Positions 15,390 through 36,978 of a stretch of DNA of 37,529 nt are shown piece after piece. A model generated the notes under the pieces. That model searched no databases. It was not told where the DNA came from and saw only the letters and a program-made list of their open reading frames with translations. The DNA comes from Anaerolineae bacterium CG2_30_57_67. GTDB taxonomy: Bacteria; Chloroflexota; Anaerolineae; Anaerolineales; Villigracilaceae. Numbering within the stretch: position 1 is the first letter of the stretch; the number at the start of each line of letters is the position of its first letter. The stretch lies in the NCBI GenBank assembly GCA_001872455.1, contig MNXJ01000061.1, forward strand, positions 1 to 37,529, given 5' to 3'. A program made the translations under genes and the position numbers.

Positions 15390-15614
15390 TTAGCGGCCCA
15401 GAAAGAGCGCAATAATCGCCAGCGAGAAGAAGAGAATACTCAGCGCAATGGTCATGCGGAAGAGAACTTTCTCGATGCCGCGCCGGGCGGTGAAGACAGC
15501 GCCGCTATCGGCGCCGGTAAGCCCGCCGAGCCCCGCGCCCTTGCTTTGTAAGATGACGCCAGTAATCAGCGCAAGCGAAGTGAGAATCAGGCCAATTTCA
15601 ATGTAGATTTTCAT
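15390..15614 (-). CDS. secG: Preprotein translocase subunit SecG
   Basis: 74 residues, normal SecG size. SecG is a two-helix accessory subunit of the SecYEG channel. Two membrane helices (about 2-20 and 50-72) flank the conserved QSKGAGLGGLTG loop. AAGGA lies 6 nt before the ATG at 15614; the frame extends 11 codons upstream without homology. It has its own strong promoter. Confidence 0.93.
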   Translation of the reverse strand: MKIYIEIGLILTSLALITGVILQSKGAGLGGLTGADSGAVFTARRGIEKVLFRMTIALSILFFSLAIIALFLGR

Positions 15615-15651
15615 GCTTATCCTTTTCGTTTCTTTTAAATTTAACATGCCT

Positions 15652-15681
15652 ATTATAATGTGACTTGGAAGAAATCGTCAA
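15652..15681 (-). promoter_or_regulatory. secG promoter
   Basis: On the minus strand TTGACG (15681-15676), an 18-bp spacer, then TATAAT (15657-15652). The overlapping plus-strand TATAAT (15654-15659) could serve rightward transcription. Confidence 0.65.
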
Positions 15682-15684
15682 CTG

Positions 15685-15796
15685 GGCTTTGGCTGGTGAT
15701 TACCCACATCTTGCTCCACCCTGCAAAGCGACATATATGTCGCTTTTGTCCACAGGACAAAAATTGGCGGCTTGTGGGTAATCACCAGGGCTTTGG
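15685..15796. mobile_element. MITE-like element with perfect 16-bp inverted ends
   Basis: The 96-bp body (15693-15788) begins CTGGTGATTACCCACA and ends with its exact reverse complement. GGCTTTGG flanks it on both sides (15685-15692 and 15789-15796), an 8-bp target duplication. Inside are the palindrome AGCGACATATATGTCGCT (15727-15744) and a hairpin TTTTGTCC/GGACAAAA (15744-15762 region). No coding frame is present. A half copy of the right side is at 36918-36978. Confidence 0.85.
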
Positions 15797-15805
15797 ATAA
15801 AATTT

Positions 15806-16870
15806 ATGCGCGAAATTATCGTTAATCTGCACATGCACACCCGCTATTCTGACGGCACTGGCTTGCACGCCGATTTGGCGCAAGCCGCGCTGGATGCGGG
15901 CGTGGAAGTGATTCTCGTCACTGACCATAACGTTCTCGCCCGCTGTTTTGAAGGTTATACCCGCCGTGAACGGAAAACCGTCCTACTTTTGGTGGGCGAA
16001 GAAGTTCACGACCAGGCGCGCCAGCCGCAAAAAAATCACCTGCTGGTTTTTAATGCCCCCCGCGAAATGGCGACTTTTGCCCACGACCCGCAAACATTGA
16101 TTGATGCTGTGCGGCGTGAGGGCGGTCTGGCCTTTTTGGCGCATCCCACCGACCAGGCCTGCCCGTCAATCAAGGAAACCGCCATCAATTGGGTGCTGGA
16201 TGACGCTCAAAATTTCACGGGCATTGAACTGTGGAACGGCCTGAGCGAATTTAAAACTGTCAGTCCGACCCGCCTGCACGCTTATTTTCATGCTTTCTTT
16301 CCGCAGTGGATTGCCACCGGCCCCGACCCGCTTTTGCTTGCGCGCTGGGATGCGCTCCTGGCCGCCGGGCGCAAAGTGGCCGCGATTGGCGGCTCTGATG
16401 CTCATGCCTTGCATGTCAGCGCCGGGCCGCTGCGCCGTGAAATTTTTCCGTACGCCTGGCATTTTCGCACCATCAACACGCACCTGCTTGTCCCTGATGA
16501 AGCGTTTTGTGGCGATTTGGAGATGGACCGCGCCGCCATATACGAAGCTCTGGGGCGCGGACGCGGATTCGTGGGCTATGACCTGCCCGCCCCTACGCGC
16601 GGATTCCGCTTTTCGGCGCATGGGCGCGACATGCAGGCGCAAATGGGCGACGAAATAAGCGTCGAAGGTGGGGTGACGCTTCAGGCTTTGCTCCCCGGCC
16701 CGGCGCTGGGACGTTTGCTGAAGGATGGCAGAGTCATTCGTCAATGGCGCACGCGTGAGGCGATGTCGCAGGTAATCAGCGAACCGGGCGCGTACCGCGT
16801 AGAAGCCTACATCCACTATCTTGGCAAACAGCGCGGTTGGATTTTTAGCAATCCGATTTATCTGCGTTGA
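15806..16870 (+). CDS. PHP-domain metallo-phosphoesterase-like protein
   Basis: 354 residues. The N-terminal PHP domain has the expected metal ligands in NLHMHTRYSDGTG (HxH), VTDHN, GEEVH, LAHP and GGSDAHA. PHP proteins hydrolyse phosphoesters of nucleotides, histidinol phosphate and related small molecules; members with a C-terminal beta-sandwich, as this one appears to have (about 265-354, RFSAHGRDMQAQMGDEISVEGG), are mostly uncharacterised. No Shine-Dalgarno is evident. The right end of the MITE-like element lies only 9 bp upstream, so the insertion probably reshaped its promoter. Confidence 0.85.
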   Translation: MREIIVNLHMHTRYSDGTGLHADLAQAALDAGVEVILVTDHNVLARCFEGYTRRERKTVLLLVGEEVHDQARQPQKNHLLVFNAPREMATFAHDPQTLIDAVRREGGLAFLAHPTDQACPSIKETAINWVLDDAQNFTGIELWNGLSEFKTVSPTRLHAYFHAFFPQWIATGPDPLLLARWDALLAAGRKVAAIGGSDAHALHVSAGPLRREIFPYAWHFRTINTHLLVPDEAFCGDLEMDRAAIYEALGRGRGFVGYDLPAPTRGFRFSAHGRDMQAQMGDEISVEGGVTLQALLPGPALGRLLKDGRVIRQWRTREAMSQVISEPGAYRVEAYIHYLGKQRGWIFSNPIYLR

Positions 16871-35896: not shown

Positions 35897-36850
35897 TCAG
35901 ACGGTATAAGTTCCGCCCGGCGCGGGCACGGCCAACAAGGTTTCTTGCACCAATTTTTCAGCGCTGATTTCACGCAGGCGGGCGGCGGGATTGACGATGA
36001 TGCGGTGCGCCAGGATAGGCGCAGCCAGGGCTTTGACATCGTCAGGCAGGGCATGGTCGCGCCCAAGCAGGGCAGCGCGCGCCTGTACAGCGCGAAAAAG
36101 CGCCAGTGAGCCGCGCGGCGAGGCGCCCAGATAGATTTCGGCGTTTTGGCGCGTGCGCTGAACAATTTCAACGATGTAGCGCTGCAGGATGACGGCGACG
36201 TAAATGTTTCGGACGGCTTGAGCGGCTTGCAGGACTTCTTCGGCGCTGAAAATGGGCTGGAGACTCTCGATGGGGTGCTGGAGTTGCTGGTCTTGTAGAA
36301 TGCGGATTTCATCGCTGGTGGATGGGTAGCCCATGCGCAGGCGCAGAAGGAAACGGTCGAGCTGGGCTTCTGGCAGCGGAAAGGTGCCTTCATATTCAAT
36401 TGGATTCTGCGTGGCAAGCACCATGAAGGGACGCGGGAGCGGATAGGTGACGCCATCCACCGTCACCTGGCGTTCTTCCATGGCCTCGAGCAGGGCGGCC
36501 TGCGTTTTGGGCGTAGCGCGGTTGATTTCATCCGTAAGGATGACCTGTCCAAAGATGGGGCCAGGGCGAAATTCAAACTTGCGGGTTTCCTGGTTGAAGA
36601 TGGAGGTACCGGTCACATCACTGGGGAGCATATCCGGGGTAAATTGCAGGCGGTTAAAAGTGCAACCGAGCGATTTTGCCAGGGCGCGCGCAAGCACGGT
36701 TTTCCCCACGCCCGGCACATCTTCGATAAGAACATGTCCCTGGCAAAGCAGGCCGATGGTGATGAGTTCAATGGCATTGCGTTTGCCAATGATGACTTTT
36801 TCCAGGCTGGCGAAAAAGGTTTCGCCAAATTTTTGCAGGTCAATGGGCAT
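35897..36850 (-). CDS. moxR: MoxR-family AAA+ ATPase
   Basis: 317 residues. MoxR ATPases act as chaperones that mature metal-containing or cell-envelope complexes. Walker A is EDVPGVGKT (43-51, Lys50), Walker [25 protein letters not shown] near 105, the sensor 1 region is [13 protein letters not shown], and the C-terminal lid domain is present. AAAGGAAT precedes the ATG. Its promoter lies 28 nt further upstream, and it is followed by the DUF58 gene in the same operon. Confidence 0.94.
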
Positions 36851-36877: not shown

Positions 36878-36906
36878 ATTGTACGTGAGAATGAAAGTGG
36901 ACGCAA
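36878..36906 (-). promoter_or_regulatory. moxR promoter
   Basis: On the minus strand TTGCGT (36906-36901), a 17-bp spacer, then TACAAT (36883-36878). Confidence 0.55.
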
Positions 36907-36917
36907 TATGCCAATGA

Positions 36918-36978
36918 CTGGTGATTACCCACAAGTCACCAATTTTCGTCCTGCGGACAAAAGCGACATAAATGTCGC
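36918..36978. repeat. Half copy of the MITE-like element
   Basis: Begins CTGGTGATTACCCACA and follows the reverse complement of 15728-15788 through the GTCC/GGAC hairpin to the palindrome GCGACATAAATGTCGC (36963-36978), then diverges. The other half and its inverted end are missing. The rest of 36979-37250 shows no gene; it holds short direct repeats such as CGCAACTCGCATCTCGCATC-like sequence. Confidence 0.75.

Follow-up and report, generated by a model that had tools for sequence, protein, structure and literature searches.

A MITE and an IS with the same ends tend to lie in a fixed register upstream of sigma-70-like promoters in Anaerolineae and related genomes

The 96-bp element that separates secG from a PHP-domain gene in Anaerolineae bacterium CG2_30_57_67 is a real MITE, with dozens of copies in the genome and an empty site in relatives. 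Copies of this MITE, as well as those of an IS bearing the same ends, tend to lie in a fixed register upstream of sigma-70-like promoters. We consider it very probable that the MITE originates from an IS with a Tn5-like transposase, that it was mobilised in trans, and that it was inserted by a cut 3 bp upstream of the -35 hexamer, the promoter being kept. In what follows, the window is the whole stretch of 37,529 nucleotides analysed, corresponding to contig 69 of the 87 contigs that make up this 2.99-Mb genome.

Results

A MITE upstream of the secG promoter

The features of the locus, together with those of a second region of the window, are compiled in Table 1. The initial annotation had described the element, from its letters, as delimited by perfect 16-bp inverted ends, and these proved exact in both coordinates and letters. 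Likewise, the 8-bp duplication GGCTTTGG was recovered on both sides (8/8 match), and the sequence bore out the 9 bp lying between the second repeat and the ATG of the PHP gene. The element was also said to have a non-coding 96-bp body with two hairpins; the hairpins and the non-coding character hold, but the 96 bp include the ends. The end-to-end stem and the two inner palindromes reach -50.8 kcal/mol (z -6.05), and none of 200 shuffles was as stable. The ORFs of at least 40 aa that touch the element measure just 46-48 aa, and an Rfam scan of the window yielded one match, a tRNA, and none at the element.

Table 1. Coordinates of the MITE copies, promoter elements and neighbouring genes in the window
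Feature	Position	Strand	Basis
MITE copy, 96 bp, non-coding	15693..15788	.	sequence and copies
Left terminal inverted repeat CTGGTGATTACCCACA, ATCT-type inner end	15693..15708	+	
Right terminal inverted repeat, perfect (reverse complement), AAGC-type inner end	15773..15788	-	
8-bp target-site duplication, copy 1, secG side	15685..15692	.	
8-bp target-site duplication, copy 2, PHP side	15789..15796	.	
Internal palindrome AAGCGACATATATGTCGCTT	about 15726..15745	.	
Internal hairpin TTTTGTCC-ACA-GGACAAAA	about 15744..15762	.	
secG, gene behind the tagged promoter	15390..15647	-	ORF; Pfam SecG E 1.4e-11
-10 hexamer TATAAT of secG promoter, spacer 18	15652..15657	-	
-35 hexamer TTGACG of secG promoter	15676..15681	-	
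3-bp gap, duplication to -35 hexamer	15682..15684	-	
PHP-domain gene, other side of the element	15806..16870	+	ORF; Pfam PHP E 2e-8
Promoter-like TTGCGT-17-TACAAT, upstream of ORF 35897-36850	36878..36906	-	
Second MITE copy, truncated, single intact end 36918-36933	36918..36978	.	
IS1-family transposase C-terminal fragment, runs off the contig edge	37260..37529	-	DDE_Tnp_IS1 E 5.8e-9

The element lies upstream of the secG -35 box, which is left intact. A scan of positions 15560-15860 for sigma-70-like promoters found a single one, directed toward secG, versus 0.8 expected in shuffles, and no terminator was found in the same interval. The proposal that the element supplies or disrupts the promoter of the PHP gene is thus unsupported as written, as the sole promoter found there points to secG. 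The element stands 17 bp before the PHP ATG and might affect this gene. By eye, positions 15797-15805 offer the PHP gene no clear ribosome-binding site, and two congeners have GAGG before the ATG.

The locus was searched in 60 relatives and matched in 53 of them (54/61 including the genome itself); the loci of 19 relatives were kept, and 16 of these showed where the PHP gene begins. The empty site that the initial annotation had suggested looking for is present, all 16 displayed loci being devoid of the element as judged by eye. Furthermore, secG is the neighbour in 14 of these 16, and GTCAA, the reverse of the -35 box, occurs at the window's position in 12 of the 14 (by eye). No variation was seen in ATTATAAT, AAATCGTCAAC or the -10 hexamer TATAAT among four aligned sequences. 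Since relatives without the element keep the promoter, the latter predates the insertion, through which a single GGCTTTGG was turned into two.

In the second region of Table 1, the TTG of the promoter-like site lies 11 bp outward of the truncated copy; this site was left out of the promoter count because its -35 hexamer matches at just 3/6 positions.

Copies in the genome and in the family

Allowing up to 2 mismatches, the 16-bp end matched 76 times in the genome, as opposed to 0 times for its reversed, uncomplemented control. By blastn, the 112-bp stretch (element plus duplications) gave 86 matches, a figure that includes partial, reverse-strand and palindrome self-matches. Some of the 76 end matches probably occur by chance inside genes (e.g. 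L097 and L115, by eye). Indeed, in both L097 (G000:C68) and L119 (G002:C57), which belong to two species, the end falls by eye inside an apparent ABC-ATPase gene (LVITHYQ), and these two matches should leave the copy counts because they are coding. With these other copies, the duplications, the empty sites and an IS having the same ends in a relative, the description of the sequence as a non-autonomous transposed element is supported; neither of the two outcomes that the initial annotation had named as refuting it (a lack of further copies, or of an empty site) was observed.

The copies come in forms of 67, 96-97, 123 and 163 bp, in addition to other lengths, with common outer parts and differing interiors, and some of them adjoin. 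The differing interiors suggest that the middle has been exchanged or that small elements are nested. Forms with other interiors were seen at L072 and L095 (G000:C32 and C67), L063 and L110; the 163-bp form contains long palindromes, while those of 227 and 245 bp have a common inner stretch related to AATACTGTTTA.

With at most 1 mismatch, the end occurs 46 times in this genome versus 0, 1, 3 and 0 times in four congeners, which implies either recent multiplication in this lineage or loss in the others. At the same stringency it was found in 45 of 150 genomes of the family, this one included, with 64 matches in G011, 29 in G156, 20 in G130 and 9 in G157.

Target-site duplications and a fixed promoter register

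Outward from the MITE ends, TTGACA followed by TATAAT was conspicuous at one distance. Promoters were scored as at least 9/12 hexamer matches with a TTG start, the offset being read outward from the end. A promoter was thereby placed at offset 10/11 in 18 of the 76 ends of this genome, every other offset having 0-2 and shuffled flanks giving a mean of 0.5 (maximum 4), and in 27 of 116 ends from other genomes, where each other offset gave 0-1. The offset and -10 counts exclude ends with less than 80 bp of flank as well as duplicate flanks, and the pairing counts exclude pairs near a locus edge; chance matches inside genes were kept, and dilute the counts.

When paired copies from other genomes were compared with a re-pairing control, an 8-bp duplication (at most 1 mismatch) was apparent in 13 of 37 (0.42 expected) and a 7-bp duplication in 13 of 37 (0.36 expected). 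The corresponding figures for this genome were 1/25 for 8 bp (0.04 expected) and 5/25 for 7 bp (0.26 expected). With both ends paired, the existence of two offsets is accounted for by duplications being 7 or 8 bp long, the offset tracking duplication length (7 bp, offset 10; 8 bp, offset 11; 10 bp, offset 13).

In total, 73 paired elements were available (62 MITE-sized and 11 IS), of which 34 have a recognisable duplication, measuring 7 bp in 19, 8 bp in 14 and 10 bp in one. A TTG begins exactly 3 bp beyond the duplication, on one side only, in 30 of these 34, each other distance from 0 to 39 giving 0-3. As for the exceptions, L155 and L159 break this 3-bp rule, whereas L181 and L190 narrowly miss it; L190 has TTC, and L181, scored as a failure, would obey with an 8-bp duplication including one mismatch. 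L159 (G136) and L205 (G130) are probably a single insertion site counted twice as orthologues. The 3-bp gap is the same at every duplication length, so that the cut on the side of the promoter seems to be fixed. Measured upstream from the -35 hexamer, the duplication is reached after 3 bp and extends over another 7-8 bp (6-10 across all cases). The promoter goes with no single type of end, TTG occurring at 10/11 in 30/76 AAG-type, 40/81 ATC-type and 16/51 other ends.

The promoter threshold at offset 10/11 was passed by just 10 of 25 paired elements of this genome and 20 of 37 from others. The promoter scorer gave 18/23 concordant cases, and the simpler TTG count was substituted afterwards; it was chosen after looking, some misses of the scorer being one-base artefacts.

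Promoter or TTG

A -10 hexamer (at least 5/6 matches, spacer 16-18) follows 60% of the 86 TTG sites at offset 10/11, compared with 2.3% of the 968 TTG at other positions of these flanks, whether or not in genes. For TTGAC sites, a good -10 was found in 71% of 38 in register versus 14% of 71 elsewhere, and the base preceding TTG is C in 44/86 sites in register versus 168/968 elsewhere. As some 40% of in-register TTG sites have no good -10, TTG may outweigh the promoter. On the other hand, the -10 excess taken with the preceding C leaves both a transposase contact to (C)TTG and help from the polymerase viable, and not exclusive of each other. In our judgement, an intact TTG in 30/34 exceeds what would be expected of promoters in general.

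The partner IS and its predicted transposase fold

A transposase gene with the same ends, which the initial annotation had recommended seeking, is present in a relative, but none of that type was found in the MITE-bearing genome itself. In G100, a member of the family, two perfect ends identical to those of the MITE enclose a stretch of 1,432 bp in which there is a 458-aa ORF; the IS at L247 measures 1,453 bp and has one ORF. Relatives of the 458-aa transposase occur in 7 of the 150 family genomes, G100 included, several as fragments only, and a search of the MITE-bearing genome for such a relative found none, so that we infer mobilisation from the shared ends. A scan of named genomes produced 15 IS loci, distributed among bins of Anaerolineae and other Chloroflexota, Litorilinea, Herpetosiphonaceae, a Rubrobacter bin and a Sumerlaeota bin; for mobile DNA such bin labels may be wrong.

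A Pfam scan of the 458-aa protein gave no match, and NCBIfam gave weak matches only, two of them to IS4 models. For the family member at L168, NCBIfam IS4 models scored 6.9e-6 and 3.6e-5 and NF041680 2.5e-8, all far below cut-offs; Pfam DDE_Tnp_1 passes in one of three members (L265 passing, L264 falling just below, L168 giving none). Compared by sequence with the PDB, the transposase had 0 matches at E up to 1. A structural model was built from 11 sequences (pLDDT 72.9, pTM 0.77), and the top six PDB matches of the predicted fold are Tn5 transposase or its inhibitor form, with a Foldseek E of 9e-14 (4e-3 for the first other protein) and a VIA-align Z of 28 (rmsd 5.5, 382 aligned), piggyBac reaching 13. 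The partner transposase is predicted to adopt a Tn5-like fold. W349-R352-E356-Q363 are invariant in the 11-sequence alignment, and a DDE triad would be consistent with D225, E356 and D133, the last of these being nearly invariant. The NCBIfam matches comprised no Mutator, ISKra4 or ISLre2 model, and the fold lists, where Tn5 was far ahead, no Mutator transposase, an absence that is no proof against a Mutator-type enzyme.

Two other candidates were rejected as partner. One is the IS1-type fragment of the window: the MITE ends match exactly the G100 IS, the transposase of which has a predicted Tn5-like fold and no Pfam match, and the fragment is IS1. The other is a Tn5-like IS of the same genome (Pfam Tnp_DNA_bind, three contig ends), whose ends, CTGTCTATTACCCACATCT and CTATCTATTACCCATAAGT, have 3 and 5 differences from the MITE over their first 16 positions; the four of its ends that were read (L087, L105, L144, L145) do not follow the TTG rule. 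This IS is collapsed at contig ends, being found at the ends of G000:C47 and C86 and at the starts of C74, C78, C40 and C41 (L087, L105, L144, L145, L149, L150); as two of its ends lie in MITE sequence and have a common 9-10-bp repeat, contigs 47 and 86 probably join.

The register in further elements

The prediction that at least 70% of copies obey the 3-bp rule, along with the TTG count, was fixed before the copies of genome G156 were retrieved, one copy without clear duplication being already known. Six of seven G156 copies obeyed, and TTG was at 10/11 in 9 of 30 ends. In IS relatives from Thermus, the rule was followed by 4 of 5 copies with a duplication (6, 7, 8 and 10 bp; by eye), two of the five having a common left flank (L271, and L276 at 25844) and hence not being fully independent; a sixth copy, without duplication, was left out.

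Among the 11 IS copies with both ends, offset 11-13 is occupied by a promoter-like site in five, and one more has TTG at 10 (by eye), while five, including the perfect-ended G100 copy, have neither a promoter-like site nor TTG (L255, L256, L257, L258, L266). Two of the 11 have a clear duplication, and both obey the rule. The remaining four of the 15 IS loci (L261, L262, L268, L269) have fewer than two usable ends and fall outside the 11, which do comprise L267 (819 bp), truncated inside.

Two loci are worth recording separately. At L260, in a Litorilinea aerophila bin, an IS that lacks a duplication is flanked on each side by an in-register promoter-like site, an arrangement such as recombination between two insertions would leave. 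At L121/L254 (G003, of the same genus), what appears to be an internally deleted relative of the IS carries both end types about 390 bp apart, and lies by eye 11 bp upstream of a promoter-like site before a tRNA-like sequence; it is a possible step from IS to MITE.

Discussion

Proposed mechanism and rival explanations

In the mechanism that we propose, the MITE would derive from an IS that shares its ends and encodes a Tn5-like transposase, and would once have been mobilised in trans by that IS. The transposase would cut the target bond located 3 bp upstream of the -35 hexamer, at sites where TTG would be nearly obligatory, C favoured just before it and a -10 hexamer often found 16-18 bp on, and the TTG may be read by the transposase itself. 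The other strand would be cut 7-8 bp further upstream (rarely 10; 6-10 in the Thermus relatives), the transposon ends joined to the target, and the bases between the cuts duplicated by gap repair. From the way in which duplications arise, it follows that the near cut is fixed and the far cut variable. Because the duplicated bases again adjoin the promoter, the -35 and -10 hexamers and the bases immediately above the former are unchanged, and the promoter should therefore stay usable. The stretch just above the -35 hexamer is the site of the proximal alpha-CTD contact. Such an insertion would be nearly harmless, which would help explain the high copy numbers, and part of the register could reflect the survival of harmless insertions.

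It is nevertheless improbable that insertion was near-random and that selection, by keeping copies that spared genes and promoters, concentrated what was left in promoter regions. Insertions that fall between genes and do no harm should persist more readily, and TTG without a -10 also occurs; survival alone, however, predicts a broad spread, in contrast to the single register seen (30/34 at 3 bp, others 0-3), which moves with duplication length and is ignored in the same genome by the different Tn5-like IS at L087, L105, L144 and L145. The fixed promoter spacing and the strong palindromes would also suit a promoter-linked regulatory element (an operator or an sRNA module) situated upstream of -35 boxes, with no transposon involved. 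We hold this to be very unlikely, in view of (i) target duplications well above control and empty sites in relatives, (ii) adjacent copies, and 67/97/123/163-bp forms combining common outer parts with different interiors, (iii) the IS having the same ends plus a transposase, and (iv) orthologous genes which, in the displayed relatives, stand without the element at the locus. An inverted repeat arisen by chance, or an error of assembly, found no support and may be dismissed with near certainty given the 76 end matches against 0 in the control and the occurrence of the end in 45/150 genomes.

A different question is what sets the register. It might be the RNA polymerase holoenzyme, the transpososome docking on the polymerase and cutting above its -35 contacts, which would be a version of the main explanation and not exclusive of it. 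The -10 hexamers found at the right spacing far above background, and the combination of a weaker -35 with TATAAT at L184 and L214, speak in its favour. Yet TTG is nearly invariant (30/34) and C favoured before it, which we judge to be more than a footprint alone predicts, and TTG sites without a good -10 exist (L223, L264); docking on the polymerase is a possibility that we regard as rather unlikely.

Comparison with known systems

One near comparison is with Tn5/IS50, which the partner IS resembles in its predicted transposase fold, its size (1,432 and 1,453 bp) and its one ORF. According to the accessible text of the IS4 family review, the IS50 subgroup spans 1350-1550 bp, with a single-ORF transposase, direct repeats of 8-9 bp and the end consensus CW------Y---CA-A--W-, which the partner-IS ends (CTGGTGATTACCCACAAGT / ...CACATCT) fit at 7/7 of the positions stated there. 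Duplications in the MITE/IS set are mostly 7-8 bp, as against 8-9 bp in the subgroup. The signature differs too, W-R-E-Q replacing the Y-(2)-R-(3)-E-(6)-K (YREK) of the subgroup, for which reason the partner IS is not classed as an IS50 member. The strict TTG register has no counterpart in the accessible part of the review, whose main text is without the word 'promoter'. The review does report 'spectacular apparent insertion specificity' for some IS4-subgroup elements, and since its Figure 3 presents target-site consensuses, the register may already have been recorded for some IS4-type element.

The Thermus IS (WP_008630830 type; T. aquaticus and T. parvatiensis plasmids) has a transposase 28% identical to that of the partner IS and ends CAGGACTTTACCCACATCT, and has the duplication-plus-3 rule in common with the MITE/IS set. 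Unlike the partner IS, it carries the canonical Y-R-E-K motif (by eye), and some of its targets are without a clear -10 (e.g. L270).

Insertion at a fixed distance upstream of sigma-70/A promoters is a likeness to TnGBS, ISLre2 and ISKra4. TnGBS/ISLre2 (p-MULT 3) insert 15-17 bp from the -35 of sigma-A promoters, and 13 elements of the ISKra4 group (p-MULT 4) are also promoter-upstream, all of these being Mutator-type with duplications of 8-9 bp; MITEs are not mentioned in the accessible text of that study (PMC3942029). The MITE/IS set differs by its distance of 10-11 bp and by its predicted Tn5-like fold.

In being short and non-coding, with inverted ends, duplications, many copies and ends shared with an IS, the element agrees with bacterial MITEs in general; to our knowledge, none of these has been described as inserting at a single distance from promoters. 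In the accessible text of the literature covered (including PMC3942029, PMC2266710, PMC10433421 and PMC9208149, most subscription papers and ISfinder lying outside this scope), a fixed promoter register was not found reported for any MITE or any element of Tn5/IS4 type. Overall, promoter-upstream insertion is known from Mutator-type elements, and what looks new is a Tn5-fold family inserting at 10-11 bp.

Biological meaning

Tn5, one of the transposases that are best understood and most used, has a loose target preference. On balance, we favour the view that promoter-directed integration has arisen independently in a family with the predicted Tn5 fold that does not belong to the Mutator group. 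This family would recognise the -35 hexamer or the bound polymerase, cut 3 bp upstream and leave the far cut variable. The IS and its MITEs would accordingly mark promoters in Chloroflexota, Actinobacteriota and Deinococcota (the latter two judged from single bins and plasmids), and would be to bacteria what the promoter-docked integration of Ty3-type elements is elsewhere. That the near cut is fixed and the stagger variable is a specific mechanistic clue. If this view is true, it would provide a second, unrelated route to promoter-safe integration beside the Mutator-type one, as well as a tractable system for studying how a DDE transpososome reads a promoter, and the copies would naturally tag, to the exact base, the sigma-70 promoters of uncultured lineages.
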